This document shows positions 4,385-24,871 of a stretch of 64,000 bases of DNA, in pieces. Numbering within the stretch: the first letter of the stretch is position 1; each line of letters starts with the position of its first letter. Both the position numbers and the translations under genes were made by a program. Source of the DNA: Pseudooceanicola marinus (GTDB lineage Bacteria; Pseudomonadota; Alphaproteobacteria; Rhodobacterales; Rhodobacteraceae); assembly GCF_020177265.1 (NCBI RefSeq), contig NZ_JAIVMC010000005.1, positions 62,001 through 126,000 of the forward strand. The letters run 5' to 3'. The notes beneath the pieces are model-generated. The model was not told the DNA's origin and did no database searches. It saw only the letters and a program-made list of their open reading frames with translations.

Positions 4385-4394
4385 ATGTATACAT
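4385..4394. promoter_or_regulatory. GntR-type operator before the O-demethylase gene
   Basis: Perfect 10-bp palindrome ATGTATACAT, 28 bp upstream of the O-demethylase start. It matches the alternating GT/AC half-sites bound by FadR-subfamily GntR repressors, and the gene just upstream encodes such a protein. The embedded TATACA also resembles a -10 element, so bound repressor would block the promoter. The same core occurs four more times in the window. Confidence 0.7.
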
Positions 4395-4501
4395 GAGATC
4401 GCGAGTCGCGCTGCAAAAAGCAAGAGAAAATTTCCGCGCCGCCCGGGGAAATTTTGACCGGGAGGCGAGAAATTGCCTGCTTTTACTGGCTATATGGGCG
4501 G

Positions 4502-5248
4502 TTACTTTTCTGCGGGCGCAACAAGCTCCAACCCCGGCACGGTGGTGACCATGCTATGTTCGCTGGAGAAAATGTATTCAAGGTTGCGCCGTGCGGCCAG
4601 GGCATGTTCCCGCGCCAGGGCCTCCGCCCGGGCGCCTTCGCGCGCCGCGATGGCGGCCACCAGCTCGCGGTGCTGCTCCTGCCCGACGGCCAGTGACCGG
4701 CGGAAGGCCGACAGGCGCCCCTCGTTCGGCAGGAAGGCCGAGGGCGAGGCGAAGGGCAGGGATTTCACCCGCGCCAGCTCCCGCTCGAAGGTGGCGGAGC
4801 CGGGCAGCGCCGCCAGGGCGTCATGAAACTGGCTGTTCAGCTCGGAATAGGCCTCGAAATCCACCTCGCCGGGGTCATCGCCGAAAACCTCGTCCAGCTT
4901 GCGCACGATCTCGGTGATCTCGCGCAGCTTCGCCTCCGACACGCCGCGCTCGGCCGCCAACCGCGCCGCGGTGCCCTCCAGCACGCCCCGCAATTCCAGC
5001 GTGTCGAGCACGTCGGCATAGGCGAAGCTGCGCACCATGAAACCGCCCGAGGGCGCACGCTCCAGCAGGCCCTCCTCGGCCAGGCGCGACATCGCTTCGC
5101 GCACAGGGGTGCGGGAGATTTGCAGATCCTCTGCCAGGGCCACCTCGAACAGGCGGGTGCCGCCCGGCAACTCGCCCTTTGTGATCCGCTTGCGCAATTC
5201 CACCAGCGCGCGCATCGCGTGAGTTTTCGAGGTCGCTTCCCGTGCCAT
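4502..5248 (-). CDS. GntR-family transcriptional regulator, FadR/FCD subfamily
   Basis: 248-residue regulator with an N-terminal winged helix-turn-helix (about residues 1-75, containing SRTPVREAM) and an all-helical FCD ligand domain (about 85-225). The FCD domain keeps an Asp and three His in the usual metal-binding positions (LDTLELR, SQFHDAL, QEQHREL, REHALAA). Some relatives, such as VanR, repress aromatic O-demethylation genes and are released by the aromatic substrate. The gene is first in the minus-strand cluster and is divergent from the ring-cleavage operon. The shared region holds two TGTATACA palindromes, so autoregulation and control of both sides are likely. Confidence 0.92.
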   Translation of the reverse strand: MAREATSKTHAMRALVELRKRITKGELPGGTRLFEVALAEDLQISRTPVREAMSRLAEEGLLERAPSGGFMVRSFAYADVLDTLELRGVLEGTAARLAAERGVSEAKLREITEIVRKLDEVFGDDPGEVDFEAYSELNSQFHDALAALPGSATFERELARVKSLPFASPSAFLPNEGRLSAFRRSLAVGQEQHRELVAAIAAREGARAEALAREHALAARRNLEYIFSSEHSMVTTVPGLELVAPAEK

Positions 5249-5276
5249 TCATGTCTCCTGATCCATCCGCAAAATT

Positions 5277-5284
5277 TGTATACA
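5277..5284. promoter_or_regulatory. GntR-type operator, gntR-proximal
   Basis: TGTATACA core 28 bp upstream of the gntR start. On the minus strand its TATACA could be a -10 element, with TTTGCG about 16 bp upstream as -35. Likely autoregulatory. Confidence 0.65.
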
Positions 5285-5348
5285 TGACTGCGCCACATCG
5301 CAAACCAATTGACAGCTGGCCTCGGGCACACAGGGGCCTTCCCCGCGG

Positions 5349-5362
5349 CAATGTATACATTG
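5349..5362. promoter_or_regulatory. GntR-type operator before the ring-cleavage operon
   Basis: Perfect 14-bp palindrome CAATGTATACATTG, the most symmetrical copy in the window, 81 bp upstream of the first plus-strand gene. A TTGACA hexamer at 5309-5314 may be part of the plus-strand promoter. Two sites 72 bp apart in the divergent region would allow control of both transcripts. Confidence 0.7.
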
Positions 5363-5443
5363 GAGGGGATTTACCCTTGTTGAATCGTCAAAACACGGCT
5401 ATCCAACGATGAAATGTATGCGACGTGGAGGAGGAGGACCGCC

Positions 5444-6142
5444 ATGGCGACATTGCTGCTGATCCCCGGACTGTTATCCGATGCACGCGTCTGGCGCGCC
5501 GTGGCCGAGGCCTCGCCGATGCCCGTGGCCGATGCCGATGTCTCGCAGGAGACCAGCATCCCCGCCATGGCCGCGCGCCTGCTGCGCGATCACCCCGGCC
5601 CGCTGGTCCTCGCCGGTCACTCCATGGGTGGCCGCGTCGCGATGGAGATGGCCCACCAGGCCCCCGACCGCATCCGCGGCATGATCCTGGCCAACACCGG
5701 CCACGGCAGCCTGAAGGCGGGCGAAGAACCCAAACGCATGGCGAAGGTCGCCCTGGGCCATGAGGACATGGACCGGCTGGCCGCCGAATGGATCCCGCCG
5801 ATGCTGGACCCGGCCCGCGTCGGTGACGCGGCCCTGGTCACGGACCTGACCGAGATGGTGCTGAAAATGGGCGCAGAGGTGCATGAGCGCCAGATCCGCG
5901 CCCTGCTGGCCCGCCCCGACGTGAAGACCTACCTTGCCGACATCCCCTGTCCCGTGCTTCTGATCACGGGCGCCCAGGACGGATGGTCCCCGGCAAAGCA
6001 ACATCGCGAGATCGCTGCCCTTCTGCCGCGCGCAGAGGTACAGGTGATAGACGGCGCAGGCCACTTCCTGCCCGTCGAACGGCCCGAGGAGACGGTGACC
6101 GCAATCACCGCCTGGCTGAAAACCCACGAGGAGGAGTTCTGA
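5444..6142 (+). CDS. alpha/beta hydrolase, first gene of the lig operon
   Basis: 232-residue alpha/beta hydrolase. The nucleophile elbow GHSMGG puts Ser60 at the active site, with Asp179 (GAQDGWSP) and His207 (GAGHF) completing the triad. The start at 5444 has GGAGGAGG upstream. The stop overlaps ligA (TGATG), so it is translationally coupled to the dioxygenase. Extradiol cleavage of protocatechuate-type rings can give the lactone 2-pyrone-4,6-dicarboxylate, and cleavage of 3-O-methylgallate can give a methyl ester. A lactonase or methyl esterase acting on such a product is the best inference. No close family assignment is claimed. Confidence 0.88.
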   Translation: MATLLLIPGLLSDARVWRAVAEASPMPVADADVSQETSIPAMAARLLRDHPGPLVLAGHSMGGRVAMEMAHQAPDRIRGMILANTGHGSLKAGEEPKRMAKVALGHEDMDRLAAEWIPPMLDPARVGDAALVTDLTEMVLKMGAEVHERQIRALLARPDVKTYLADIPCPVLLITGAQDGWSPAKQHREIAALLPRAEVQVIDGAGHFLPVERPEETVTAITAWLKTHEEEF

Positions 6143-6480
6143 TGTCCGACGCACAGATCCCCGAGACACCGCTGTTCGACCGCAAGGGGTCGATCGACGG
6201 CTATCGGATCAACAAGATGGCCATGGCGCTTGGCGACCCGGCCAACCGCGAAGCCTTCAAGGCGGACGAGGAAGCCTTCCTCGACCGGTACAAGCTGACC
6301 CCCGAGCAGAAGGACGCGGTCATGTCCCGCGACTGGAACCGGATGGTGGCCATGGGCGGCAACCTGTTCTTCATCCTGAAGATCGCCGCGGTCGACCCGA
6401 CCCCGATCACCGCCATCGGCGCGGCCCAGGCGGGCCTCGACCACGCGGACTTCCTGAAACAGCGACTGGGGAAAGAATAA
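6142..6480 (+). CDS. ligA: Extradiol ring-cleavage dioxygenase alpha subunit (LigA-like)
   Basis: 112-residue small helical subunit of a type II extradiol dioxygenase (protocatechuate 4,5-dioxygenase family). The segments YKLTPEQKDAV and MVAMGGNLFFILK are typical of LigA. It is shorter than Sphingobium LigA (139 residues). The alpha subunit caps the active site of the beta subunit. Start and stop both overlap neighbours (TGATG and TAATG), so the three genes are coupled. The substrate could be protocatechuate, 3-O-methylgallate or gallate. Confidence 0.9.
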   Translation: MSDAQIPETPLFDRKGSIDGYRINKMAMALGDPANREAFKADEEAFLDRYKLTPEQKDAVMSRDWNRMVAMGGNLFFILKIAAVDPTPITAIGAAQAGLDHADFLKQRLGKE

Positions 6481-7319
6481 TGGCCAAGATCATCGGCGGC
6501 GTGGGCACCAGCCACGTACCCTCCATCGGCGCGGCGCTCGACAAGGGCATCTCCGACAACCCCGACTGGAAACCCTTCTTCGACGGCTACATTCCCGGCA
6601 AGGAATGGATGGCAGAGAAGAAGCCCGACATCGCGGTCGTCATCTTCAACGACCACGGCAACACCTTCTTCCTCGACCGCGTGCCCACCTTCGCCGTGGG
6701 CGTGGCCGACCATTACGACCCGGTGGACGAAGGCTACGGCCGCCGCTCCATCCCTTCCTTCGAGGGCGCCACGGATCTCAGCTGGCATTTCGTCGACAAG
6801 CTGGTGGAGAACCACTTCGACCCGCTGGTCTGCCGCGAGATCGAGGTCGACCACGGCCTGCAGGTCCCGATGGAGCTGTTCTTCGGCCGCCCCGAAAACT
6901 GGCCGGTGAAGGTGCTGCCGATCTGGGTCAACACCATCCAGTACCCGATCCCCACCCCGCAACGCTGCTGGGAAATGGGCAAGGTCCTGCGCGAGGCGAT
7001 CGAGAGCTTCCCGGGCGATGAGCGCGTGGTCATCATGGGCACCGGCGGCCTGTCGCACCAACTGCAGGGCAGCCGCGCCGGTTTCATCAACCGCGAGGCC
7101 GACGAGGACTGGCTGAACAACATCGCCAACAACTACGAGAAGTTCCGCAACATGTCCCGCGAGGACTATGTCGAGCAGTTCGGCTCGGAAGGGGCGGAGT
7201 TGATCATGTGGTTGGTGATGCGCGCGGCCATGGACGACAAGGTCGACCTGAAGATGAAGCATTACCACGCCCCCGCCTCGATGACCGGCGCCGGCATGGT
7301 CGTGCTGGAGAATCTCTGA
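6480..7319 (+). CDS. ligB: Extradiol ring-cleavage dioxygenase beta subunit (LigB-like)
   Basis: 279-residue catalytic subunit. It opens the aromatic ring next to the two hydroxyl groups using non-haem Fe(II). The iron ligands of LigB are recognisable: His12 (TSHVPSIG), His59 (FNDHGN) and a Glu in GSEGAEL near residue 237. The acid-base His193 sits in GTGGLSHQLQG. Sequence and length agree with LigB of the protocatechuate 4,5-dioxygenase family (302 residues in Sphingobium). With the LigM-like enzyme, it gives a route from methoxylated benzoates to 4-oxalomesaconate-level intermediates. Confidence 0.93.
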   Translation: MAKIIGGVGTSHVPSIGAALDKGISDNPDWKPFFDGYIPGKEWMAEKKPDIAVVIFNDHGNTFFLDRVPTFAVGVADHYDPVDEGYGRRSIPSFEGATDLSWHFVDKLVENHFDPLVCREIEVDHGLQVPMELFFGRPENWPVKVLPIWVNTIQYPIPTPQRCWEMGKVLREAIESFPGDERVVIMGTGGLSHQLQGSRAGFINREADEDWLNNIANNYEKFRNMSREDYVEQFGSEGAELIMWLVMRAAMDDKVDLKMKHYHAPASMTGAGMVVLENL

Positions 7320-7651
7320 TGGCCTTCTTCCTGATGCGCTGTCTGCACCACCCGGGCCAGGACGCGGCCCGGGATGAACACCGCCCCGCGCACCGCGCCT
7401 GGGTCGGATCGGGCGGAAACGGCCTGGCCTCCGTGCTGATCGGCTCTGCCCTGCAGGATGACAGCGGGGCCGGCATCGGCAACTTCGGCATCATCGAGGC
7501 AGCGTCGCCGGCCGACGCGCGCGCCTTCGCCGAAGGGGATCCGTTCAACGCCGCGGGCATCGTGGCCGAGATCGACCTGACGCCCCTGCCCGACACCTTC
7601 CAGGCCCATCGGATTACCGATCCGATGTCGCCCCGCCTCGCCGATGGCTGA
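7319..7651 (+). CDS. YCII-family protein
   Basis: 110-residue protein with the YCII pattern: a ferredoxin-like fold, a conserved histidine near the N-terminus (HRPAHRAWV) and the end motif ARAFAEGDPFNAAG. YCII proteins resemble muconolactone isomerase in fold, and many have no known reaction. The start overlaps the ligB stop (TGATG) and the end overlaps folB, which places it firmly in the ring-cleavage operon. A role as an isomerase or accessory for a cleavage product is possible but not shown. Confidence 0.85.
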   Translation: MAFFLMRCLHHPGQDAARDEHRPAHRAWVGSGGNGLASVLIGSALQDDSGAGIGNFGIIEAASPADARAFAEGDPFNAAGIVAEIDLTPLPDTFQAHRITDPMSPRLADG

Positions 7652-8030
7652 CGGGACGATGCCGGTCGGGTCCGAGGTTGCAGTGCGCACGAAGGTCTTC
7701 GTCCGCGACTTGCGCGTCGAGGCCCTGATCGGCGTGCTGGGTCACGAACAGGGGCAACGCCAGCCCCTGTTCCTCGACGTCGAGATGGACGTGCTGACCC
7801 CCGATGCCGATGACCTGGACCAGGCGCTGGATTATCGTCTGGTGGGCGAACTGGCCGAGGACATCGCAGCCACCCAGATCGGCCTGGTCGAGGTCTTCGC
7901 CGAGCACCTGGCGCGCCGCTTGCTGGACCGCGCCCCGGTGCAATCGGCCCGCGTGCATCTGCGCAAACCCCAGGCGCTGACCAATGGGCTGGCCGGAACC
8001 GAGGTCACCCTGGCCCGCACTTCGGCCTGA
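7644..8030 (+). CDS. folB: Dihydroneopterin aldolase-like protein (FolB)
   Basis: 128-residue protein matching FolB: VFVRDLRVEALIGV, then a QRQPLFLDVEMDV strand and a C-terminal VHLRKPQAL strand. FolB converts 7,8-dihydroneopterin to 6-hydroxymethyl-dihydropterin in folate synthesis. It overlaps the YCII gene by 8 bp, so it is translated from the ring-cleavage transcript. A folate-synthesis gene here fits a cluster whose demethylase uses THF stoichiometrically. An ATG at 7659 is an alternative start. It may be a second copy of folB, or a paralogue acting on another pterin. Confidence 0.82.
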   Translation: MADGTMPVGSEVAVRTKVFVRDLRVEALIGVLGHEQGQRQPLFLDVEMDVLTPDADDLDQALDYRLVGELAEDIAATQIGLVEVFAEHLARRLLDRAPVQSARVHLRKPQALTNGLAGTEVTLARTSA

Positions 8031-8124
8031 TCCGCCGGGCCAGATGGTCCGCCTTCCAGGGTGGGTTCCGCCGATTTCCAACGCGTTAGCGGCACGGCAC
8101 GCTCAGTATTCAGAGAGTCAATTC

Positions 8125-8160
8125 CAGTTCAGCCGCGCCCGCTTGGGTGCGGCTGAACTG
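8125..8160 (+). terminator. Long hairpin after the lig-folB operon
   Basis: A perfect 12-bp stem (8125-8136 with 8149-8160) encloses a 12-base loop in which CCC and GGG can also pair. It lies 94 bp after folB and 157 bp before the aldehyde dehydrogenase gene. There is no U-tract. It probably ends or processes the operon transcript. Nothing else is recognised in the 287-bp gap. Confidence 0.5.
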
Positions 8161-8317
8161 CTATGCCAGCCATGTCACAAGGATTTCACCGTTTTCCTGT
8201 GACCTGAAGTCTTGCGCGGTCGCTCAAAATATTAGACACATGCGCCCAAACCCGAATACGGTCGCCGCGGCGGCCAACAGGCGCAATTGTGCAGGCGCAT
8301 ATGGAAAGGACAGGGCC

Positions 8318-9751
8318 ATGAGCTATCCGGACACGCTTCTTCTGATCGACGGCGAATGGGTGCCGGCGGCTTCTGGCAAGACGCTCGGCGTTGTGAACCC
8401 CGCCACCGGCGAGGAAATCGGGCGCTGCGCCCATGCCAGCACCGAGGACCTGGACCGCGCGCTGGCCGCCGTCGACCGCACCTTCCCCGAATGGAAGCGC
8501 ACCGCGGCCTTCGAACGGTCGAAGATCATGCGCCGCGCCGCCAACCTGCTGCGGGATCGCGTCGACACGGTGGCGCAGATCATGACCGCCGAACAGGGCA
8601 AACCCCTGGCCGAGGCCAAGGTGGAGATCCTGGGCGCCTGCGACACCATCGACTGGTTCGCCGAAGAGGCGCGGCGCGCCTATGGCCAGGTGATCCCGGC
8701 GCGCAAGCCCGGCGTCACCCAGCTGACCATCAAGGAGGCCGTCGGCCCCGTCGCCGCCTTCACGCCCTGGAACTTCCCGATCAACCAGGTGGTGCGCAAG
8801 GTCTCTGCCGCGCTTGCCACCGGCTGCACCATCATCGTGAAGGCGCCCGAGGAAACCCCGGCCTCCCCCGCCGAGCTGATCCGCGCCTTCGTCGACGCAG
8901 GCGTGCCCGCCGGCGTGCTGAATCTGGTCTACGGCGATCCGGCGGAGATCTCCGGCTACCTGATCCCCCATCCGGTCATCAAGAAGGTCTCCTTCACCGG
9001 TTCCACCCCGGTGGGCAAGATGCTGATGGGAATCGCCGGACAGCACATGAAACGCGCCACGATGGAGCTGGGCGGCCATGCGCCGGTGCTGATCTTCGAC
9101 GATGCCGATGTCGAGGCCGCGATCGAGGGCATGCTGGGCGCGAAACAGCGCAACGCGGGCCAGGTCTGTGTCTCTCCCACCCGCTTCCTGGTGCAGGAAG
9201 GGGTGGCCGACGCCTTCACCGACGGCTTCACCGAGGCCTATGCTGCGCTGAAGGTCGGTGACGGCATGGCCGAGGGCACCCAGATGGGGCCGCTGGCCAA
9301 TGACCGCCGCATCCCCGCGATCACCGCGATGATCGACGATGCCGTCGCCAAGGGAGCAAAGGTGAAGACCGGCGGCCACCGCATCGGCAACGCCGGCAAC
9401 TTCTTCGAGCCGACGGTGATCACCGACGTGCCCACCGATGCGCTGATGATGAACGACGAACCCTTCGGGCCGCTGGCCATCGTCAACCGCTACAAGACCG
9501 AGGATGAGATCTTCGCCGAGGCGAACCGCCTGCCCTTCGGCCTGGCCTCCTACGCCTGGACCAGCTCGTCGCGCCGCGCGCAGCGCCTGCAGGACGAGGT
9601 CCGCGCCGGGATGCTGACGATCAACCACCTCGGACTGTCGATGCCGGAGGTCCCCTTCGGCGGCATCGGTGACAGCGGCATGGGCACCGAGGGCGGCTCG
9701 GAAGCCATCGAAAGCTACCTGGAAACCCGGTTCGTCACCCGGCTGGGCTAA
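8318..9751 (+). CDS. NAD(P)-dependent aldehyde dehydrogenase (succinate-semialdehyde dehydrogenase-like)
   Basis: 477-residue aldehyde dehydrogenase of normal length. The active site is complete: Asn152 in PWNFP, Glu250 in MELGG and nucleophile Cys284 in NAGQVC. The start at 8318 follows GGAAAGGACAGG; an upstream in-frame ATG would add 57 residues of unrelated sequence. The closest type recognised is GabD-like succinate-semialdehyde dehydrogenase. In this cluster it could instead oxidise a ring-cleavage semialdehyde, since no LigC-type semialdehyde dehydrogenase is present in the window. It converges on a MarR gene. Confidence 0.92.
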
Positions 9752-9760
9752 GACAGAACG

Positions 9761-9790
9761 CGGCGCGCGGGCCCCAATTCCCGCGCGCCG
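9761..9790. terminator. Shared hairpin between the convergent aldehyde dehydrogenase and marR genes
   Basis: Perfect 11-bp G/C-rich stem (9761-9771 with 9780-9790) with an 8-base loop CCCCAATT, starting 10 bp after the aldehyde dehydrogenase stop and 27 bp from the marR stop. The symmetry allows it to act on both strands. There is no U-tract. Confidence 0.55.
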
Positions 9791-9816
9791 CGCGCCGTGC
9801 CGTCAGCACTGCACCG

Positions 9817-10317
9817 TCAGTGGGCCTGCGGCAGCTCGATATTCAGCATCTTGCGCAGCAGGTATTTCAGCTGCTCCGCCTCATCCGCGCTGAGGTTCAT
9901 CGAGGCGCGCTTCTCCAGGCGCAGCATGTCCTCATCGGCGCTTTCCAGAAGCAGGAACCCCTTGCGGGTCAGCGACACGCAGATCGACCGCGCGTCGGTC
10001 AGCGAGGCTTCACGCTGCACCAGCCCCTTGCGCTCCATCCGGCGCAGGGTGTCGCTGACGGTATTGACGTCCAGCGCCACGGCCTCCCCGATCGTCTTCT
10101 GCGACGAATTCGGCCGTTGCCCGATCGCCACCAGCAGCGCCAGTTGGCGCGACGTGATGTCGTATTCAGCGAAGACGCCCGGAAACAGCGACTCGCACCG
10201 GAAGTGTGCCCGCCGCAAGAGATGCACCATCACATCCAGAAGCACATGCTTCCGCGCGACGCTGGACACCTCTACCTCGGTGTTCGGCCCGGTATTCACT
10301 TTCTCAAACATACTCAT
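9817..10317 (-). CDS. MarR-family transcriptional regulator
   Basis: 166-residue winged-helix regulator. The central DNA-binding region has the MarR pattern: QKTIGEAVALDVNTVSDTLRRMERKGLVQRE, then the wing DARSICVSLTRKG, with dimer helices at both ends. MarR proteins near aromatic genes usually respond to a phenolic acid or its CoA ester. It converges on the aldehyde dehydrogenase gene. A palindrome about 95 bp upstream may be its own operator. A start two codons downstream is possible. Confidence 0.92.
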   Translation of the reverse strand: MSMFEKVNTGPNTEVEVSSVARKHVLLDVMVHLLRRAHFRCESLFPGVFAEYDITSRQLALLVAIGQRPNSSQKTIGEAVALDVNTVSDTLRRMERKGLVQREASLTDARSICVSLTRKGFLLLESADEDMLRLEKRASMNLSADEAEQLKYLLRKMLNIELPQAH

Positions 10318-10410
10318 ACACTTTGTCCCCAGAAAATTTCGCCGTCACGCGTCCCGACGGCGGCGCACACAACAGTTTTGTTCACATGACCAATTACACA
10401 ATGACGTAAA

Positions 10411-10425
10411 TCAATTTGCAATTGA
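10411..10425. promoter_or_regulatory. Palindrome upstream of marR, candidate operator
   Basis: TCAATT and AATTGA half-sites flank a 3-base spacer in the AT-rich 122-bp gap between marR and the end of the LysR gene. Its size and symmetry suit a MarR dimer. The sequence is seen; the binding is inferred. Confidence 0.45.
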
Positions 10426-10439
10426 GATATTAACTAAAA

Positions 10440-11612
10440 CTAATACGACTTTTGTCGTACCGACACGGATAGTTCTTTGAGGAAAGCGTCCTGGGCGGCT
10501 GTCGGAAGCCAGTCCTGCCGGGTTGTCAGCCCGATGGGCCGGCGCGTTCCGGGCAGGTCCAGTGGCAGGGGCACCATCAGCCCGAGGTCGATCTCGGCAG
10601 CCGCCTGAAGCCGCGAGATGAAGCCGAGATGGTCGGAGGCGCGCAGCATCTCCCGCATCAGGATCATGGAGCCGGTCTCCACGATGCTCTCGGGTGGGCG
10701 ATGTCCCTGGAACAACCCGTCGAAGATCCGACGCGAGGGCGTACCCTGCCGGGCCAGGACCCAGGGCTGCGCGGCCAGGTCCTCCAGCGTCAGATCCCGG
10801 CGATCCCGCAAGGGGTGGTCGGGGCCAACCACCGCGATCAGGTCATCCTCGAACATCTCCTGCTGAACCACGTCCCCGATGGGCAGGGGATCACGCAGAG
10901 CGCCGATGAGAAAGTCGATTTCCCCCCGCCGCAACCCGGCCAGAAGATCGGCATAGGGACCTTCGTCGACCCGGATCAGCGTGTCGGGCCGGGCCGCGCG
11001 AAACGCGGCGATGGCCCTTGGCAACAAGGAACTGCGCGCCAGCGGCATCGCCCCGACGACGATCCGCCCCGCCGCGCGACCGGCAAGTTCGGCCAGCTCC
11101 ATCTCGCCCTGCTCCAGCTCGGCGAAAGCCAGGCGCGCCGCATCCGCCAGCTGCCGCGCCGGGCGGCTTGCCCGGATGCCCTGGGCGGTTCGGTCGAACA
11201 GCGGTCGCCGCGCCTCGGATTCCAGGTAGGCCACGGCCCGGTGCACCGTCGGCTGCGACAGCCCCAGGCGCCGGGCGGCCAGGGTGAAGTTCTCGGTCTC
11301 GCGCAGGGCGATCAGCGCCTCCAGCTGGGCAAAGCTGGCCGCCCCCGCCAGCCGCGGCGAGATCGGCGCCGCGGCCCGATCAATGCGGCGCAGGGCACGG
11401 GCGACCCGCGCCGCCAGCAGCTCCCCCGCTGGGGTGGGAAAAAGGCCCTGCGACATATGCCGGAAAAGCGGCTGCGCCAGGTCGCGTTCCAGCTTGGCGA
11501 CCGCCTGGGTCGCAGCCGGTTGCGACAGGTTGCATTCCTGCGCCGCACGGGAAACGGAACAATGCCGCGTGATCGCCAAAAACACCCTCAGGTGGCGCAG
11601 GTTCCATTTCAT
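10440..11612 (-). CDS. LysR-family regulator with two tandem helix-turn-helix domains
   Basis: 390-residue protein, about 80 longer than a normal LysR regulator. The extra length is a second DNA-binding domain. HTH 1 spans about residues 5-65 (SRAAQECNLSQPAATQAV) and HTH 2 about 93-157 (TLAARRLGLSQPTVHRAV). A ligand-binding domain follows from about 165 (GRIVVGAMPLARSSLLP). It is divergent from galB with a 238-bp gap that holds two inverted repeats. The likely role is control of the galB-galD genes by an oxalomesaconate-pathway intermediate or an aromatic acid; this is inferred from position. Confidence 0.9.
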   Translation of the reverse strand: MKWNLRHLRVFLAITRHCSVSRAAQECNLSQPAATQAVAKLERDLAQPLFRHMSQGLFPTPAGELLAARVARALRRIDRAAAPISPRLAGAASFAQLEALIALRETENFTLAARRLGLSQPTVHRAVAYLESEARRPLFDRTAQGIRASRPARQLADAARLAFAELEQGEMELAELAGRAAGRIVVGAMPLARSSLLPRAIAAFRAARPDTLIRVDEGPYADLLAGLRRGEIDFLIGALRDPLPIGDVVQQEMFEDDLIAVVGPDHPLRDRRDLTLEDLAAQPWVLARQGTPSRRIFDGLFQGHRPPESIVETGSMILMREMLRASDHLGFISRLQAAAEIDLGLMVPLPLDLPGTRRPIGLTTRQDWLPTAAQDAFLKELSVSVRQKSY

Positions 11613-11665
11613 GCCATGCCTCCGGCACCGCCTTTTGCAAAAAGGTACATTCGAGATTGCATAAT

Positions 11666-12603: not shown

Positions 12604-13581
12604 ATGTCCGACGTTCCAACGATGCCGCATCCCGACCTGGCCCACCTGGGCCATGTCGAGGTGCTGACCGACAAGTATGACGAAAGCCTCGACTTCTTCA
12701 CCCGGGTTTTCGGGCTGAAACTGTCCGCCGAGGATGAGACCAGCGCCTATCTGCGCGCCTGGGAGGATTACGAGTTCTGCTCGCTGAAGCTGACGCGGGC
12801 CGATACCACGGGCATTGGCCACATCGGCTATCGCGTCGCCTCGCCCGAGGCGCTGGAGCGGCGGGTGGCGGCCATCGAGGCCAGCGATTACGTCAAACAC
12901 GGCTGGGTCGAAGGCGACCAGAGCCACGGGCGCGCCTACCGCTTCGAGGATCCCTTCGGCCATGTGTTTGAACTCTATTGGGACACGGTGAAATACCAGG
13001 CCCCGCCCGAGGATGCCTCGGCGCTGAAGAACCTCGCCTCGCGCTACCACGCCCAAGGCATCAGCCCGCGCCGCATCGACCACGTCAACCTGCTGGGTGA
13101 GGACGTGCGGGCCTTCAAGGACTGGGTGGATACCTGCCTCGGCTCCCGCGTGACCGAGTATATCCAGCTGGACAACGGGCGCATGGGGGGCTGCTGGTTT
13201 TCGTGCAACAACAAGACCTATGACCTGGTCTGCTCCGAGGAACGCGGCGGCGGCAATGGCCGCCTGCACCACGTCACCTTCGCCACCGACACCCGCGAGG
13301 ACATCCTGCGCGCCGCCGACATCTACCTGGAGAACGGCGTGCATATCGAGACGGGGCCGCACAAGCATGCGATCCAGGGGTCCTTCTTCCTCTATGCCTG
13401 GGAGCCTGCGGGCAACCGCATCGAGCTGGCCAATGCCGGCGCGCGGCTGATCCTGGATCCGGGCTGGGAGCCCGTCGTCTGGACCGAGGCCGACCGCAAG
13501 AAGGGCCAGGCCTGGGGCCTGAAGACCATCGAGACATTCCACACCCACGGCACCCCGCCCGTGGACAAGAAGGAGGGCTGA
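12604..13581 (+). CDS. Type I extradiol dioxygenase, catechol 2,3-dioxygenase-like (VOC fold)
   Basis: 325-residue two-domain vicinal-oxygen-chelate protein, near the length of XylE (307). Iron ligands are visible in the C-terminal half: His160 (RRIDHVNLL), one of His222/His223 (RLHHVTFA) and Glu274 (GNRIELAN). The tail TIETFHTHGTPP is typical of catechol 2,3-dioxygenases. Family members cleave catechols next to the diol with Fe(II). It lies 21 bp after galB and 3 bp before galC, so it belongs to that operon and is unrelated in fold to LigB. Its natural substrate in this pathway is unknown. Confidence 0.9.
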   Translation: MSDVPTMPHPDLAHLGHVEVLTDKYDESLDFFTRVFGLKLSAEDETSAYLRAWEDYEFCSLKLTRADTTGIGHIGYRVASPEALERRVAAIEASDYVKHGWVEGDQSHGRAYRFEDPFGHVFELYWDTVKYQAPPEDASALKNLASRYHAQGISPRRIDHVNLLGEDVRAFKDWVDTCLGSRVTEYIQLDNGRMGGCWFSCNNKTYDLVCSEERGGGNGRLHHVTFATDTREDILRAADIYLENGVHIETGPHKHAIQGSFFLYAWEPAGNRIELANAGARLILDPGWEPVVWTEADRKKGQAWGLKTIETFHTHGTPPVDKKEG

Positions 13582-13584
13582 GGC

Positions 13585-14259: not shown

Positions 14260-14303
14260 AGGGCAGCGACCATCGGACTTGACCGATGGCGCAAGTTGCA
14301 AGG

Positions 14304-14353: not shown

Positions 14354-14366
14354 TGGGAGGGGCGCC

Positions 14367-15431
14367 ATGCCCGAGTATCAGGACGGAATTCCCTGCCTCT
14401 GGATGCGGGGTGGGACCTCCAAGGGGGCCTATTTCCTGGCCGCCGATCTGCCAGACGACGTGGCGGCGCGGGATGCGCTTCTGCTTGGCATCATGGGCTC
14501 GCCGGATCCGCGGCAGATCGACGGGATCGGGGGGGCGGATCCGCTGACCTCGAAGGTTGCGGTGCTGGGCCCGCCGACGCGCGAGGATGCTGACGTGGAT
14601 TACCTCTTCCTGCAGGTCTTCGTCGACGAGGCCATCGTCACCGACGCCCAGGGCTGCGGCAATATCCTGGCTGGTGTCGGCCCTGCCGCGATTGAACGCG
14701 GGTTGGTGCCCGTGGCGGGTGACGTGACCCCGGTGCACATCCACATGCGCAACACCGGCGAAGTGGCCGTGGCGAAGGTCCAGACCCCGGGCGGGCGGGT
14801 GACCTACACGGGCGACGCCTCCATCGACGGCGTCCCCGGCACCCATGCGCCGGTGCCGCTGATGTTCACCGGCACCGCCGGGTCGATGACCGGCAGCGGC
14901 GTCATGCTGCCCACCGGAAACGGCGCGGACGAGATCGAGGGCGTGGCCTGCACGCTGATCGACAACGGCATGCCCTGTGTCGTCATAGCCGCCAGCGACC
15001 TGGGCATCACCGGCACCGAAACGCGCGAGGAGCTGGAGGCGAACAGCGCCCTGAAAGAACGACTGGAGGCGATCCGCCTGAAGGCCGGACCCATGATGAA
15101 CCTTGGCGACGTGGCGGAGAAATCGGTGCCGAAGATGACACTGGTCTCGGCCCCGCTGGCAGGCGGGGCGATCAGCACCCGCAGCTTCATCCCGCATCGC
15201 TGCCATGCCTCGATCGGGGTCTTCGCCGCAGTCACCGTGGCCTCCGCCTGCCTGGTGGAGGGCAGCCCCGCCGCCGCCCTGGCGCAACTGCCCGAGGACG
15301 GCCGGTTCCGGATCGAGCATCCCTCCGGCGCCGCCGAGGTGCTGATCGAGACCGACGCGGGCGGGCAGATCACCGGCGCGGGAACCCTGCGCACGGCGCG
15401 CAAGCTGTTCGACGGGCGGGTCTTTTCCTGA
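14367..15431 (+). CDS. galD: 4-Oxalomesaconate tautomerase, PrpF family (GalD-like)
   Basis: 354-residue PrpF/diaminopimelate-epimerase-fold protein. The N-terminal MRGGTSKG motif and the later QGCGNILAGVGP and TGTAGSMTGSG segments are characteristic. GalD converts the keto form of 4-oxalomesaconate to the enol form, which feeds GalB. The start at 14367 follows GGGAGGGG. A longer in-frame ORF reaches back through the repeat element and is rejected. Together with galB and galC it completes the route to pyruvate and oxaloacetate. Close PrpF relatives act on aconitate-type acids, so specificity is inferred from context. Confidence 0.88.
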   Translation: MPEYQDGIPCLWMRGGTSKGAYFLAADLPDDVAARDALLLGIMGSPDPRQIDGIGGADPLTSKVAVLGPPTREDADVDYLFLQVFVDEAIVTDAQGCGNILAGVGPAAIERGLVPVAGDVTPVHIHMRNTGEVAVAKVQTPGGRVTYTGDASIDGVPGTHAPVPLMFTGTAGSMTGSGVMLPTGNGADEIEGVACTLIDNGMPCVVIAASDLGITGTETREELEANSALKERLEAIRLKAGPMMNLGDVAEKSVPKMTLVSAPLAGGAISTRSFIPHRCHASIGVFAAVTVASACLVEGSPAAALAQLPEDGRFRIEHPSGAAEVLIETDAGGQITGAGTLRTARKLFDGRVFS

Positions 15432-15451
15432 ACCTGGCCGAAGGCCGACCC

Positions 15452-15940
15452 TTATCCGAAGGGGTGTTCGATCTCGGGCGGGAAAATCACCGTGCCATCC
15501 TCGTCGTGGAAGAGGTAGCCATAGGGGTCGACCCGGGCGCCGCCGAGGTGCAGCCGCACGTCCACCTGCCCGTCGCCGCGCGACATGCAGTGGCGGGGAA
15601 TATGCCCCAGGGCCAGCACCCCGATGTCCAACTCGCGGATCTCAGTCACGTCCTTCACCGCGCCCCAGATCACCAGCCCGGCCCAGCCGTTTTCGGCGAA
15701 GCGCCGGGTCAGACGCCCGCCCAGAAGGGCCGCGTGCAGCGACCCCGCACCATCGACGACCAGCACCCGTCCGTCGCCCTCGCTGCGCGACAATTCCCGC
15801 AGCTTCGTATTGTCCTCGAAACACTTCAGCGTTTCGATCGGGCCCTGAAATCCGGTCCTTGCCCCGTAGGAGGTCAGGCCGTAGGGCAGGATCTCAATCG
15901 CATTGCCGTAATCTTCATGCAGGTCGCACGTCGTCTTCAT
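15452..15940 (-). CDS. RraA-family protein (second copy, short form)
   Basis: 162-residue RraA-type protein, distinct from galC. The segments TLKCFEDN, GRVLVVDGAGS and GLVIWGAVKDVTEIRELDIG match the short RraA group, known in E. coli as an RNase E inhibitor and in other bacteria as small aldolases of 4-hydroxy-4-methyl-2-oxoglutarate type. Here GAVKD replaces the GVRD of the aldolases, with Lys where the catalytic Arg would be. The start could also be 15 bases upstream. It converges on galD and is divergent from a TauE/SafE gene with only about 32 bp between starts. Confidence 0.85.
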   Translation of the reverse strand: MKTTCDLHEDYGNAIEILPYGLTSYGARTGFQGPIETLKCFEDNTKLRELSRSEGDGRVLVVDGAGSLHAALLGGRLTRRFAENGWAGLVIWGAVKDVTEIRELDIGVLALGHIPRHCMSRGDGQVDVRLHLGGARVDPYGYLFHDEDGTVIFPPEIEHPFG

Positions 15941-15972
15941 CTGCACCAATTCCATAGGGAGAGCTGGGCCGC

Positions 15973-16734
15973 ATGGAACGCCTCATAGAACTGATTTTCA
16001 ATGGATTGCCGGTGGAATCCGGGCTTCTCATGGCGGGTATGAGCCTTGCGTCTAGCTTCATCACCGCCTCCATGGGGATCGGCGGCGGGGTTCTTCTGCT
16101 GGCAGTGATGGCCAGCCTGTTTCCCCCGCTGGCGCTGATCCCGGTGCACGGGGTGATACAGCTGGGGTCCAACTTCTTCCGTGCCGTGCTGATGCGGACC
16201 CATGTGCAATGGCGGGTGGTGGCGGCCTTCGCCGCGGGCTCCGTCCTGGGGGTGGCGATCGGCGGATCAGTGGCGGTGCGGCTGGAACCGGCAGTGGTGC
16301 AGATCGGCATCGGCGCCTTCGTCCTGTGGTCCGTCTTCCGCAAGCCGCCCGCCTGGCTGGCGAAGGCCGGCGGGCTGACCGGGCTGGCGTCGTCGTTTCT
16401 GACGATGTTCTTCGGTGCCACCGGCCCCTTCGTCGCCAACTACGTGAAATCGCTCACCCTGCCGCGACAGGCCCACGTGGGCACCCACGCGGTACTTATG
16501 ACGATCCAGCACAGCCTGAAAAGCCTGACCTTCGGTTTTCTCGGCTTCGCCTTCGGGCCCTGGGCCGGGTTCATCCTGCTGATGATCGCCATGGGGTTCC
16601 TCGGCACGGTGCTGGGCAAACGGGTGCTGATGCGCCTGGACGATAGACAGTTCCGCCGGGCGCTGAACCTGGCGTTGGTGCTGATCTCGGCCCGGCTGAT
16701 CTGGCTGGGCGCCAGCACCCTGCTGGCGGGTTAA
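15973..16734 (+). CDS. TauE/SafE-family membrane exporter
   Basis: 253-residue inner-membrane protein with about eight hydrophobic helices in two repeats. The family signature is visible as GIGGGVLLL near residue 37 and as FFGATGPFVANY in the second half. TauE/SafE proteins move sulfite, sulfoacetate or other organic anions. The substrate cannot be read here. GGGAGAG precedes the start. The last 4 bp overlap the convergent dehydrogenase gene. Confidence 0.88.
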   Translation: MERLIELIFNGLPVESGLLMAGMSLASSFITASMGIGGGVLLLAVMASLFPPLALIPVHGVIQLGSNFFRAVLMRTHVQWRVVAAFAAGSVLGVAIGGSVAVRLEPAVVQIGIGAFVLWSVFRKPPAWLAKAGGLTGLASSFLTMFFGATGPFVANYVKSLTLPRQAHVGTHAVLMTIQHSLKSLTFGFLGFAFGPWAGFILLMIAMGFLGTVLGKRVLMRLDDRQFRRALNLALVLISARLIWLGASTLLAG

Positions 16735-17732
16735 CGCGCCAGCCCGTCGATCTCCTCCAGCAGGGAGACATCGGCCGCGATGCCCGTCCTCGACAGCTCC
16801 GACCGGATCTGCTGACGGCGGCGACCGGGCAGGCGCGCGCCGTCCATCTCCTCGATCTCGCGGGCCATGTCGGCAAAGCGCGTGGTGGCATGAGGGCCGA
16901 AGACGGTGGCGTCGATGGCCAGGATGACCTGGCCCACCCCCATCGGGTCCCCTTCCACATCGAAGAAGGAATTGGCCTCATGGGCGTAAAGCGCGCCGGT
17001 CAGGCCTGCGGCCAGCATCTCCACCATGATCGCCAGCGCCGTGCCCTTGGCCTCGCCCATGGGCAGCATGGTGCCCTTCATCGCGGCATGGGCGTCGGTG
17101 GTGGGATTGCCATCGGCATCCAGCGCCCAGCCCTCGGGGATGTCCTCCCCCGTCTGGGTCGCGGCCATGATCTTGCCCTTGGCGACCTTCGACAGGGAAA
17201 TGTCGATGACCACCGGATCGCCGCCCGCGACAGGGGCGGCAAAGGCGATGGGATCGGTGCCGAACAGCGGCTTGCGCCCGCCCCAGGGGGCCATTGCGGC
17301 GGGGGCATTGGCCATGAAGATCGCCAGGAAGCCTTGCTGGGCCAGCCGCTCCACCGGCAGGCCGGCGACGCCGCAATGATGCGAATTGTGCAGCCCGGCC
17401 AGGGCGATGCCGTTCTCGCGCGCCATCTCGGGCAGCTGCTCCAGCGCCATGTCGAGGGCGGGATAGGCAAACCCGTCATGGGCATCGACCAGCAGGGCGC
17501 CGGGGCGCGTGCGCTGGCTGGTCGGCTGCACCCGGCCCTTCACCTTCCCCGTCAGGACATGGCGCGCATAGGTCGGCAGGCGGCGCAGCCCATGGCCGTA
17601 TTGCCCCGTCAGCTCCGCCCCTACCAGGGCCTCGGCCACCGGCACCGCATTGGCGGGATCCGTGCCGCAGCGGGTCAGGGTGTCGACGACGAGGGCATGG
17701 GCCTCGGCGGGGGTCAGGGTGCGGCTGGTCAT
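16731..17732 (-). CDS. Malate/L-lactate dehydrogenase-family oxidoreductase (Ldh2/YiaK type)
   Basis: 333-residue NAD(P)-dependent 2-oxoacid reductase of the Ldh2 family, which is unrelated to classical lactate dehydrogenases. Recognisable parts are GQYGHGLRRL at the N-terminus, the HNSHHCG catalytic histidine loop, and APWGG plus GTDPIAFA in the nucleotide-binding core. Members reduce malate, sulfolactate, ureidoglycolate or 2,3-diketogulonate, so the substrate is open. It overlaps the TauE/SafE gene end to end by 4 bp. Confidence 0.9.
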   Translation of the reverse strand: MTSRTLTPAEAHALVVDTLTRCGTDPANAVPVAEALVGAELTGQYGHGLRRLPTYARHVLTGKVKGRVQPTSQRTRPGALLVDAHDGFAYPALDMALEQLPEMARENGIALAGLHNSHHCGVAGLPVERLAQQGFLAIFMANAPAAMAPWGGRKPLFGTDPIAFAAPVAGGDPVVIDISLSKVAKGKIMAATQTGEDIPEGWALDADGNPTTDAHAAMKGTMLPMGEAKGTALAIMVEMLAAGLTGALYAHEANSFFDVEGDPMGVGQVILAIDATVFGPHATTRFADMAREIEEMDGARLPGRRRQQIRSELSRTGIAADVSLLEEIDGLAR

Positions 17733-17982
17733 GGGAGAGGTCCGATCTGGAAACGTGGCGCCAATGGATCGCCTCGGCGCGGGACAGTCAAGCCGATGCC
17801 CTCTGCCGCTTTGGCGCCCGGACCGGGCGATGCCTCCGGCGGGGAGAATTTTGGCACAGAGAAACGCATCGGGCTGACCCTCGAAAGCCCCCGGGGCGCC
17901 GCCGAGGTTTTGCTGTGCCCCACCCCTCTCTATGTGTTGGCCAGTAGTATCCCGAGAGGAGTCGCGCCCCGCGTGACGGGCC

Positions 17983-19176
17983 TTACGCGGGCCCGAGCAG
18001 CTTCTCCGCGATCAGGTCCCCGATCGGCAGGGCCGAGGTCGCCGCCGGGCTGGGGGCATTGCAGACATGCAGCATCCGGGGCGTATCGAGGAAAACGAAA
18101 TCCTGGCTCATGCTGCCGTCCTTCAGGATCGCCTGGGCGCGGATGCCGCAGGGTTCCGGGGTCAGGTCAGACAGCTCCAGCGCCGGGCAGTAGCGGCGGC
18201 AGGTATCCAGGTAGCGGCGGCGGAAGACCGAATTACCGATCTCGGTCAGGCCCGGGCCGACATATTGCAGGATGGACTTCCAGAAGCCCGGGAAACTCAG
18301 CATCTGGGCCGCATCGCGGGGGCTCACCGACCACTTGGGATAGCCCTCGCGCGCGAAACCCAGCATGGCGTTCGGCCCCACGGTGACATAACCGTCGATC
18401 ATCGGCGTCAGGTGGGTGCCCAGGAAGGGCAGCCCGGGTTCCGGCACCGGGTAGATCATCGCGTGCACCACGTCGTTGAGGCGCGGCGCCAGGCGATAGT
18501 ATTCGCCGCGGAAGGGCACGATCTGCAGCCCCGGGTCGATCCCCGCCATGCGCGCCACCCGGTCCGACTGCAACCCGGCACAGGCCACCAGGCGACGGGC
18601 GGTGATGACCTCGCCGCCGGTGTCGACGGTCACCTGATCGCCCGCCTCGGTGATCGCGCGCGGCGCGGTCTCGAACCGGATCTCGGCGCCCTGGGCCTCG
18701 ATCTCCGCCAGGATCACCTGCATGACCTTCGTGTAATCCACGATGGCCGCCTCGGGCACGTGGATGGCCTTCAGACCGGTCACATTGGGTTCACGCGCGG
18801 CGATCTCGGCCCCGTCGATCAGCTCCGCCCGGATGCCGTTTTCGCCGGCCCGGTCGTACAGCGCGTCGAGGCGGGGGATCTCCTCCTGCCGCGTGGCGAC
18901 GATCAGCTTGCCGCGATCCTCGTACGGCACCCCATGCTGCTGGCACAGTTCCTTGGTGCGCGCCGCCCCCTCGCGGCAGAGCCGCGCCTTGAAGGAGCCC
19001 GGCGCGTAGTAGATGCCGGAATGAATCACGCCGGAATTGCGCCCGGTCTGGTGGCGACCCAGCTCCGGCTCCTTTTCCAGCACCACCAGCGAGGCGCCGG
19101 GGGTCCGGGCCAGCAGCGCCCGCGCCGTCGCCAGCCCGACGATGCCGCCGCCGATGATGCAATAGTCGAAGATCAT
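17983..19176 (-). CDS. lhgO: L-2-Hydroxyglutarate oxidase/dehydrogenase (LhgO)
   Basis: 397-residue FAD enzyme of the DAO family. The N-terminal GGGIVGLATARAL binds FAD, and GRNSGVIHSGIYY and YVTVGPNAMLGFAREGY match LhgO. It oxidises L-2-hydroxyglutarate to 2-oxoglutarate and passes electrons to the quinone pool. The start at 19176 follows GGAGGGG; a longer in-frame ORF adds 27 non-homologous residues. E. coli LhgO is about 422 residues. It is divergent from a CaiB-type CoA transferase, a pairing that would suit a C5-dicarboxylate (glutarate) route. Confidence 0.9.
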   Translation of the reverse strand: MIFDYCIIGGGIVGLATARALLARTPGASLVVLEKEPELGRHQTGRNSGVIHSGIYYAPGSFKARLCREGAARTKELCQQHGVPYEDRGKLIVATRQEEIPRLDALYDRAGENGIRAELIDGAEIAAREPNVTGLKAIHVPEAAIVDYTKVMQVILAEIEAQGAEIRFETAPRAITEAGDQVTVDTGGEVITARRLVACAGLQSDRVARMAGIDPGLQIVPFRGEYYRLAPRLNDVVHAMIYPVPEPGLPFLGTHLTPMIDGYVTVGPNAMLGFAREGYPKWSVSPRDAAQMLSFPGFWKSILQYVGPGLTEIGNSVFRRRYLDTCRRYCPALELSDLTPEPCGIRAQAILKDGSMSQDFVFLDTPRMLHVCNAPSPAATSALPIGDLIAEKLLGPA

Positions 19177-19339
19177 GTGCTGCCCCTCCACGGTCCACGC
19201 CCTCCGGGGGCGGTTCGGCCCGATGATGGCATCTGACCCGCCGAAGCGCCAGAGCACCCGGCTTATGCGCCGGACGCATCATGCCATGACCAGAACTCGT
19301 TTCATCTCGGGGGCTTCGGCCGCTAGGTAGGGGGCAGGC

Positions 19340-20512
19340 ATGACGAGAGGGAATGACATGACATCGGGAACGGGTGACGCGCCCCTGAAGGGGCTGAAGG
19401 TCGTGGAACTGGCGCGGATCCTCGCCGGGCCCTGGATCGGCCAGACCCTGGCCGACCTGGGCGCCGAGGTCATCAAGGTGGAGGCGCCCGAGGGCGACGA
19501 TACCCGTCGCTGGGGCCCGCCCTTCATCACCCGCCCCGATGGCCGCGGCGGCGAGGAAACCGTGGCCGCCTATTTCCACGCCGCCAACCGGGGCAAGACC
19601 TCGATCACCTGCGATTTCGGCGACCCGGCGCAGCTGGAGAAACTGAAGGCGCTGATCGCCGAGGCGGACGTGGTGCTGGAGAACTTCAAGGTCGGCGGGC
19701 TGGCCAAGTTCGGGCTGGATTACGACAGCCTGAAGGATGCCAACCCGGGGCTGGTCTATGCCTCCGTCACCGGCTTCGGGCAGGACGGGCCGCGCGCCAA
19801 GCAGCCGGGCTATGATTTCCTGATCCAGGGCATGTGCGGGATCATGGACCTGACCGGCGACCCGGCGGGCGAGCCGCAGAAGATCGGCGTGGCCTGGATC
19901 GACATCTTCACCGGGCTTTACGGTGTGATCGGCGTGCAGGCGGCGCTGGCCGAACGGGCGCGCTCGGGCAAGGGGCAGCACGTCGACCTCAGCCTGCTGG
20001 ACGCGGGCGTGGGCGTTCTGGCCAATCAGGCGATGAACTTCCTGCTGGGCGGCCAGGTGCCGCACCGGCTGGGTAATGCGCATCCGTCGATCGTGCCCTA
20101 CCAGGTGTTTCCGGCCGCCGACGGCCATTTCATCGTCGCCTGTGGCAACGACCGGCAGTTCCGCGCGCTTTGCGGCATCCTCGGGCTGGAGCTGGCGGAT
20201 GATCCCGACTTCGCCACCAACGCCGCCCGCGTCGGCAACCGCGACCGGCTGGCCGAGCTGATTTCCGACAAGACCCGCCTGCGCCCCAAGGCCGAGCTGA
20301 TCGCGGCGATGGAGGCCGGCGGCGTGCCCGGCGGGCCGATCAACACGGTGGAGGAGGCCCTGGCAGACCGCCAGATCGTTGCCCGCGGCATGCAAATCGC
20401 CCCCGAGGGCCTGGCCGGACTGCGCACGCCGGTACAATTCTCCCGCTCCGACCTGGCGGTGGACAAGGCCGCGCCGGCGCTTGGCGACGGAGAATGGCGA
20501 TTCTCTTCCTGA
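19340..20512 (+). CDS. CaiB/BaiF-family CoA transferase
   Basis: 390-residue family III CoA transferase. Typical segments are GLKVVELARILAGPWIGQTLADLGAEVIKVE, NRGKTSI and the catalytic aspartate in GYDFLIQGMCGIMDLTG. These enzymes move CoA between carboxylic acids, for example succinyl-CoA to glutarate. It faces lhgO across 163 bp, consistent with glutarate or hydroxyglutarate metabolism; this is inferred. ATG 19358 is an alternative start. A TGTATACA palindrome begins 3 bp after the stop. Confidence 0.9.
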   Translation: MTRGNDMTSGTGDAPLKGLKVVELARILAGPWIGQTLADLGAEVIKVEAPEGDDTRRWGPPFITRPDGRGGEETVAAYFHAANRGKTSITCDFGDPAQLEKLKALIAEADVVLENFKVGGLAKFGLDYDSLKDANPGLVYASVTGFGQDGPRAKQPGYDFLIQGMCGIMDLTGDPAGEPQKIGVAWIDIFTGLYGVIGVQAALAERARSGKGQHVDLSLLDAGVGVLANQAMNFLLGGQVPHRLGNAHPSIVPYQVFPAADGHFIVACGNDRQFRALCGILGLELADDPDFATNAARVGNRDRLAELISDKTRLRPKAELIAAMEAGGVPGGPINTVEEALADRQIVARGMQIAPEGLAGLRTPVQFSRSDLAVDKAAPALGDGEWRFSS

Positions 20513-20514
20513 TT

Positions 20515-20522
20515 TGTATACA
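20515..20522. promoter_or_regulatory. GntR-type operator, distal upstream site of folD-purU
   Basis: TGTATACA core directly after the CoA transferase gene and about 490 bp before folD. It has the same core as the three sites around gntR and the O-demethylase gene. A second copy lies 163 bp downstream. Confidence 0.6.
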
Positions 20523-20677
20523 TTAATACCCTGACGGCGGGCCGCTCTGGCGCGCACCGAACGGCGGCCAGAAGCCCCGACTGGGCCCATGGTGGAGAAA
20601 ATTCACTATAGGAACGGGATTTCCGCCACCACCGGCGGCTTTCCCAACAAAACGCGTGACCTCCCCCCGCGATGCAA

Positions 20678-20685
20678 TGTATACA
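20678..20685. promoter_or_regulatory. GntR-type operator, proximal upstream site of folD-purU
   Basis: TGTATACA core 327 bp before folD. Its TATACA with GTGACC 18 bp upstream could form a promoter. A transcript from it would begin near 20692, before the possible leader ORF. It links folD-purU to the same regulator as the O-demethylase. Confidence 0.6.
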
Positions 20686-24868: not shown

Positions 24869-24871
24869 GCC

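Follow-up and report, generated by a model that had tools for sequence, protein, structure and literature searches.

A probable one-carbon-load regulon joining aromatic O-demethylation, ring cleavage and folD-purU in Pseudooceanicola marinus

Introduction

Demethylation that depends on tetrahydrofolate (THF) requires free THF, so that a cell growing on methoxylated lignin units must clear one-carbon (C1) units. Whether a single regulator could govern both processes is the question raised by a 64,000-base stretch of the Pseudooceanicola marinus genome (assembly GCF_020177265.1, contig NZ_JAIVMC010000005.1, positions 62,001 to 126,000; hereafter the window), in which the palindromic core TGTATACA recurs before the predicted O-demethylase gene ligM, between the regulator gene gntR and a divergent run of ring-cleavage genes and, 15 kb away, before folD-purU. 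A preliminary description of this DNA had claimed that the GntR protein acts on all of these sites, so that methyl groups taken from methoxy-aromatics induce folD-purU. The sequence evidence gathered here supports that claim, and we put the probability at a little over 80% that the GntR protein, whose gene lies between two of the five palindromes, uses all five as operators and that these, with further sites beyond the window, make up a one-carbon-load regulon. The grounds are the homology of this protein to the repressor Atu1419 along with a shared 10-mer operator, the fact that the proposed effector of Atu1419, 5,10-methylene-THF, is the substrate of FolD, and the tracking of GntR by the folD operator within the genus. 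To these may be added other lineages, in which folD, purU or fhs follows this operator or joins this run of genes, by differing arrangements.

Results

Clustering and placement of the palindrome

The five exact matches to TGTATACA in the window (4386-4393, 5277-5284, 5352-5359, 20515-20522 and 20678-20685) were recovered exactly as first described, and all of them occupy intergenic, regulatory positions relative to the called genes. The chance expectation for the window is 0.05 (mean of 100 dinucleotide shuffles, with a maximum of 1). A scan of the whole genome (4.55 Mb in 28 contigs, labelled here as C1 and so forth), which the preliminary description had proposed, returned 13 copies as against 5 for a reversed control pattern. 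Six of the 13 fall within about 21 kb (C5:61830-82685), where the rate in the rest of the genome predicts 0.03 (P ~1.5e-12, for a region picked after the sites had been seen). The member of this cluster that lies outside the window is at C5:61830, 170 bp to the left of it and 33 bp before a MetF-like gene. Among the matches listed, the longer form WTGTATACAW occurs five times in this genome, always in the C5 cluster (control, 2); the one cluster copy without it is the proximal folD site ATGTATACAC. On the strength of these counts and of the clustering, a chance origin of the palindromes was rejected.

As 10-mers, the putative operators of the window are ATGTATACAT at 4385..4394, 28 bp upstream of the ligM start; TTGTATACAT at 5276..5285, 28 bp upstream of gntR, which starts at 5248 on the minus strand; and ATGTATACAT at 5351..5360, 75 bp from the gntR operator and 84 bp before the hydrolase gene (start 5444) that heads the hydrolase-ligAB-yciI-folB run. 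Before folD-purU there is a distal TTGTATACAT at 20514..20523, immediately behind the caiB stop codon (20512), as well as a proximal ATGTATACAC at 20677..20686, 163 bp from the distal site and ~326 bp before folD. With 13 copies in the genome against 5 for the control, a handful are to be expected by chance, and the distance to folD is long; even so, it is very improbable that the palindromes at folD lack a function or arose by chance, given a single intergenic region that holds two exact cores at a spacing of 163 bp, the P value of the clustering, and the presence in the other four members of the clade described below of a proximal exact core plus a distal site.

Two copies outside the cluster stand at fitting genes. 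One lies 37 bp upstream of a tannase/feruloyl-esterase-family gene on C3 (Pfam Tannase, E 1.8e-91), which is present in three of 22 genomes of the genus, each time with a core at most 160 bp upstream; the other is 55 bp upstream of folE2, encoding a GTP cyclohydrolase, on C7 (L021 4000-4064, C7:209205). The five remaining copies, at C1:259771 (flanked by an icd-like and an MFS-like gene), C1:798136, C4:261363, C4:302820 and C7:149749, have G on their 3' side, and the called proteins give no fitting gene; they were taken as background and not as operators.

The regulator and its proposed effector

The product of gntR (4502..5248, minus strand) is predicted to be an FCD-type GntR repressor, its GntR DNA-binding and FCD effector domains both scoring above the Pfam cut-offs. 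Its nearest solved relative is PDB 6z74 with its companions (phmmer E 2.4e-87), which we take to be Atu1419 from the fit of the published residue numbering (H9, R31, E34, S44, R45, T46, R49) to the chain. All seven of these DNA-contacting residues are identical in the window protein, as are eight of the nine named citrate contacts of the Atu1419 pocket (R86, Y133, N137, H141, S169, R183, H214, N221); as a guess, the His at position 192 of the window protein could be the third zinc His.

Atu1419 of Agrobacterium fabrum is a GntR/FCD repressor that the authors of PMC7797058 assign to the VanR group and not to the FadR group, which corrects the FadR-type label first given to the window protein. 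Atu1419 represses atu1418 (MetF-like), atu1419 itself and atu1420 (LigM-type), whose expression rises 1.6- to 3.9-fold upon its deletion; it binds the operator 5'-ATGTATACAT-3' and forms a tetramer that can join two palindromes, separated by 190 bp, in a loop (PMC7797058). It is released by 5,10-methylene-THF, the proposed effector, and not by THF or 5-methyl-THF (PMC7797058). The system resembles that of P. marinus in its ATGTATACAT operator, in close homology with identical DNA contacts and most ligand residues, in the placement of operators before its own gene, a LigM-type gene and a MetF-like gene, and possibly in the pairing of sites within ~200 bp (PMC7797058). In P. marinus the ligM-type, metF-like and own promoters each carry an Atu1419-type operator ATGTATACAT, the gntR-side site (TTGTATACAT) with one mismatch. 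On this analogy, we infer that the DNA-binding, repression, tetramer, looping and effector properties of Atu1419 carry over to the window protein.

The regulon would also be compatible with an effector that is an aromatic acid and not methylene-THF, folD-purU then being induced feed-forward. Such a signal is reported for related circuits, vanillate for the VanR of Caulobacter and vanillate or syringate for the DesR of Sphingobium SYK-6 (PMC6888825), and one Atu1419 ligand residue differs in the window protein. We nevertheless consider it unlikely in view of the eight identical citrate contacts, of a regulon that covers folate genes and so reaches beyond ring chemistry alone, and of the release of Atu1419 described above. 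The window also has no match, at up to two mismatches, to ATTGGATCCAAT, the Caulobacter VanR operator, which differs from ATGTATACAT.

The putative folD-purU operators across the genus

Downstream of the C5 cluster's folD sites lie folD (21012..21914, plus strand), predicted from a profile match to encode the 5,10-methylene-THF dehydrogenase/cyclohydrolase, and purU (21939..22823, plus strand), whose product scores above the TIGR00655 cut-off as a predicted formyl-THF deformylase. The genus set comprised 22 genomes, that of P. marinus included, of which nine had the GntR protein at E <=1e-40 and 21 had one FolD match at E <=1e-80. The operator core was found at most 900 bp upstream of folD in five of the nine genomes with GntR and in none of 12 without it. 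All five genomes whose GntR is at least 89% identical carry it (G000, G256, G251, G265 and G261, the P. marinus genome included); as these look like one clade, the pattern is an association and not five independent events. In each of the five, the proximal site has one mismatch to ATGTATACAT, and a distal site with one or two mismatches lies 163-186 bp further upstream.

Comparison of the folD upstream region in blocks points to a composite leader. The 130 bp adjoining folD resemble those of four operator-less congeners (z 3.2 to 7.8). Blocks B and C further upstream, in which the proximal operator lies, are matched in the remaining four genomes of the clade (z 6.2 to 93) and score z -1.0 to 1.4 against the four operator-less congeners, with one exception in block C: G264, which has neither GntR nor a folD operator, scores z 4.0 against the proximal block. 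The block with the distal operator aligns with G256 only (z -0.3 to 1.0 for G251, G265 and G261), so that in these three genomes the distal site is recognized from its position and its 10-mer only. We infer that an operator-controlled promoter was added upstream of an older folD leader, and such an addition would account for the 326-bp gap between the proximal operator and folD. A known RNA in this long leader was also considered and dismissed, as Rfam matched nothing in 1-26000 when gathering scores were applied, nor in 20400-21100 at E <=1.

Related arrangements in other genomes

Two congeners (G250 and G258) show a comparable linkage by gene order. Divergent from gntR, they carry a one-strand run hydrolase-ligA-ligB-yciI-folD-folB, in which a gap of 0.2-0.3 kb precedes folD. 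A different purU (54% identical; TIGR00655 equivalog) adjoins the metF operator, directly ahead of it. In eight genomes of the genus with a GntR at least 69% identical, 25 of 32 WTGTATACAW sites are beside gntR, lig, ligM, metF, folD or tannase genes. Among the matches listed for a genome of another genus (G097, 4.0 Mb) there are five WTGTATACAW sites, at gntR, ligM, a metF-like gene, fhs-folD and folE2; for one of a third genus (G222) there are four, before gntR, ligM, fhs-folD-folD and a ligAB-like pair. The start of ATGTATACAT is 254 bp upstream of fhs-folD in G097 and 66 bp upstream in G222. In G267, ATGTATACAT lies between enoyl-CoA hydratase and acyl-CoA synthetase genes (L170 12451), which suggests that a side-chain CoA pathway joins the regulon there.

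Two candidate members did not hold up more widely. The core was found at folE2 in three of 47 loci (two of 21 in the genus, the near twins G000 and G256, and one of 26 in the family set, G097, where it overlaps folE2 codons 2-5; L188 3292-3305); it is absent from the other 19 genus loci and the other 25 family loci, and folE2 was rejected as a firm member. In a survey of fhs loci covering the relatives' genomes, the exact operator was present in two of 26 (two of 19 with GntR, none of seven without), and fhs was rejected as a general target. The GntR-less G249 has GTGTATACAG 144 bp upstream of fhs.

At gntR itself the core is widely kept. At least one copy lies no more than 1.5 kb from gntR in 27 of 30 family loci (P. 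marinus included), and a class-wide search found the core near gntR in all eight further loci, seven of them outside the family. Since the core near gntR is kept this widely and the folD core is restricted, control of gntR and its neighbours seems to be old, and the inclusion of folD-purU a lineage-specific extension that seemingly arose in more than one way. Two class-level homologues (G644 and G468; L280 and L283; 49% identical) have one in-frame TAG each in the GntR gene, indicating either a broken gene or a question of frame.

Paired sites

Allowing up to two mismatches, second sites lie 86 and 190 bp away at metF, 187 bp at ligM, 75 bp at gntR/lig, 163 bp at folD and 85 bp at the tannase gene. 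Five of the six promoter regions thus have a second site within 260 bp, folE2 having none; two of the pairs consist of exact cores and the others are degenerate, with a motif weakly above chance. The ligM partner, ATGTATTCAA at 4572..4581 (two mismatches), lies inside gntR, 187 bp from the ligM operator, and is a possible, weak loop partner for which the degenerate site inside atu1420 offers a comparison (PMC7797058). Another two-mismatch site, ATGCATACAG at 2834..2843 between ligM and dctP, may be due to chance. The background of such sites was four in ~133 kb of the same genome, counted in stretches some of which had been fetched around TGTATACA copies, with the operators and the five non-operator copies excluded. 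As the two-mismatch motif is only weakly above chance in the window, single degenerate sites prove little; the pairs fit a looping tetramer without proving looping.

Weighing the evidence

Several observations weigh against a GntR regulon that includes folD-purU. Within the protein, pocket residue K175 of Atu1419 is E. At the locus, the proximal site is 326 bp away from folD, and a scan for sigma-70-like promoters found none in 4300-5500 or 20400-21100. Within the genus, two genomes that have the GntR, G267 (69%) and G257 (55%), lack a core in the 900 bp next to folD, and that of G250 and of G258 does not immediately precede the gene. Beyond it, 29 folD loci were compared from 28 further genera whose GntR is 50-65% identical, and not one has the core within 900 bp of folD (27 genera being testable, as G153 has only 90 bp upstream and six lesser FolD matches have no locus; a further genome of this kind, G159, the 29th, has no FolD match), and only two of the 28 have the operator before fhs-folD.

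The specificity of the motif is also limited. WTGTATACAW is found in 10 of 13 GntR-less genomes of the genus (23 sites, as against 34 in the nine with GntR), a two-mismatch search of the window gave eight matches against a shuffle mean of 3.2 (two of 100 shuffles reach eight), and in other genomes GntR paralogues (30-36% identical) are encoded near the same core, once (L201) beside the exact ATGTATACAT. Other FCD regulators may therefore use this core. Cores on the paralogue side are mostly TTGTATACAA or ATGTATACAA (L166 4037-12821, L169 4118-12870, L201, L208, L210, L219; paralogues here 32-36% identical), and those of L208 and L210 are accompanied by TRAP genes. The two-mismatch control, the motif in GntR-less congeners and the ATGTATACAT copy beside a paralogue slightly lower our trust in the regulon and slightly raise the standing of a rival by which this GntR acts at the lig-cluster sites and a different paralogue, sharing the core motif, at those of folD-purU, for instance one tied to the glutamate-synthase-like and glutamine-synthetase-like cluster at 23984-28341. 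The neighbourhood lends this some colour, for folD-purU is followed by an XRE-cupin regulator gene and by amidotransferase, glutamate-synthase-like and glutamine-synthetase-like genes. We hold the rival to be quite unlikely all the same: the folD operators are missing from all 12 GntR-less genomes of the genus for which there is a folD locus and occur in the five whose GntR is closest, no match to the gntR reference adjoins folD in P. marinus or at L158, L160 and L162, and folD itself sits inside the gntR-lig cluster of two congeners. The reach of the window's own GntR to folD-purU is accordingly the preferred reading of the sequence comparisons.

Genes of the aromatic cluster

The gene ligM (2951..4357, minus strand) is assigned from sequence as a THF-dependent vanillate/3-O-methylgallate O-demethylase, with an equivalog match to NCBIfam NF047885 (614.4 bits; cut-off 580) and PDB 5x1i as structural match (E 7.4e-159). 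Beyond it lie the genes of a TRAP transporter: dctP (1786..2772, minus strand; Pfam DctP, with the gene order kept in relatives), followed in the gene calls by dctQ (1264-1776) and dctM (from 1255 to beyond the left window edge). The MetF-like gene left of the window (L014 15882-16796, minus strand) encodes a 304-residue protein with methylenetetrahydrofolate reductase (MTHFR) 7xg9, presumably that of SYK-6, as its best PDB match (E 7.4e-53); TIGR00676 gives only 26 of the 293.7 bits of its cut-off, and Pfam gives none. By these matches, the MetF-like gene is predicted to supply the step between LigM and FolD.

On the plus strand, the first gene past the lig operator encodes an alpha/beta-hydrolase (5444..6142; all NCBIfam matches below cut-off), followed by ligA-like (6142-6480; below LigA cut-offs) and ligB-like (6480-7319; above LigB subfamily cut-offs) subunits of a class III extradiol ring-cleavage dioxygenase, a YciI-like protein (7319..7651; NCBIfam/Pfam profile matches) and a folB-like dihydroneopterin aldolase of folate synthesis (7644..8030; Pfam FolB 76.6 bits; TIGR00525 68.6 against a cut-off of 72.15). 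The position of this folate-synthesis gene (7644-8030) in line with ligAB, within an aromatic catabolic run, is unusual. Further along are genes of the oxalomesaconate pathway, beside which a LysR-family protein (10440-11612) has two HTH_1 Pfam matches, an apparent duplication of the DNA-binding domain. Among them is a VOC-type extradiol dioxygenase (12604-13581), whose score is under the cut-off for catechol 2,3-dioxygenase and which accompanies the ligM clusters of G250, G258 and G197.

Discussion

Taken as an Atu1419-like circuit, the locus would work as follows. In the absence of methoxy-aromatics, the GntR protein, which is probably a tetramer and could loop the DNA from one site of a pair to the other, would repress its targets: ligM with the TRAP transporter, the MetF-like reductase, gntR itself, the hydrolase-ligAB-yciI-folB run, the added upstream promoter of folD-purU and the tannase/feruloyl esterase. 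When vanillate-type compounds are present, LigM would transfer their methyl group to THF, yielding 5-methyl-THF, which the MetF-like enzyme would oxidize to 5,10-methylene-THF; this would bind the repressor and free the operators. FolD and PurU would then convert 5,10-methylene-THF to formate and free THF, whereupon repression would return and the feedback loop would be closed. The signal in this scheme would be the C1 load and not the aromatic ring.

Much of this is already known in outline: the operator, the type of repressor, its effector and its hold over a LigM-type demethylase gene and one for a MetF-like enzyme are described in PMC7797058. The published targets of Atu1419 there are three genes, whereas P. 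marinus adds sites at ligAB (with folB), folD-purU, the tannase gene and possibly folE2; the A. fabrum demethylase belongs to a hydroxycinnamate CoA pathway, whereas that of P. marinus stands with a TRAP transporter and ligAB (PMC7797058). A second precedent is the DesR regulon of Sphingobium SYK-6 with its ligM-metF-ligH operon, where one repressor likewise controls a THF-dependent O-demethylase and folate C1 enzymes (PMC6888825). DesR differs in being a MarR-type protein that answers to vanillate and syringate and in having LigH, a formyl-THF synthetase, where the window has PurU; the consulted passages of PMC6888825 describe no control of folD. That VanR-type control of demethylation is known, as the preliminary description had stated, is borne out by the GntR-type VanR proteins of Caulobacter and Acinetobacter, which control vanillate demethylation through vanAB; those systems differ in the oxygenase-type VanAB and, in Caulobacter, in the vanillate effector (cited in PMC6888825). 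Our literature search for ATGTATACAT with a GntR protein returned PMC7797058 alone, in a coverage without most subscription papers. What appears to be new, and lineage-specific, is the extension to folD-purU, ligAB, the tannase gene and perhaps folate synthesis.

A wider generalization may be drawn, which we put forward tentatively and with more doubt than confidence: that of a folate one-carbon-load regulon in which one 5,10-methylene-THF-sensing repressor presides over methyl input (LigM, tannase), oxidation (MetF-like), disposal (FolD-PurU or Fhs-FolD) and carrier synthesis (folE2, folB), in a circuit assembled repeatedly by roseobacter lineages. If this were true, the THF pool would be enlarged when methoxy-aromatics load the cell, and the repeated assembly would have consisted in adding operators before existing folate genes or in moving folate genes into the lig line. 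It predicts that other C1 sources induce the demethylase genes and that folD is induced by its own substrate. A repressor that reads a C1-folate intermediate and controls the whole disposal route would constitute a direct metabolic sensor of C1 load, and might serve as a guide for lignin-conversion strains.

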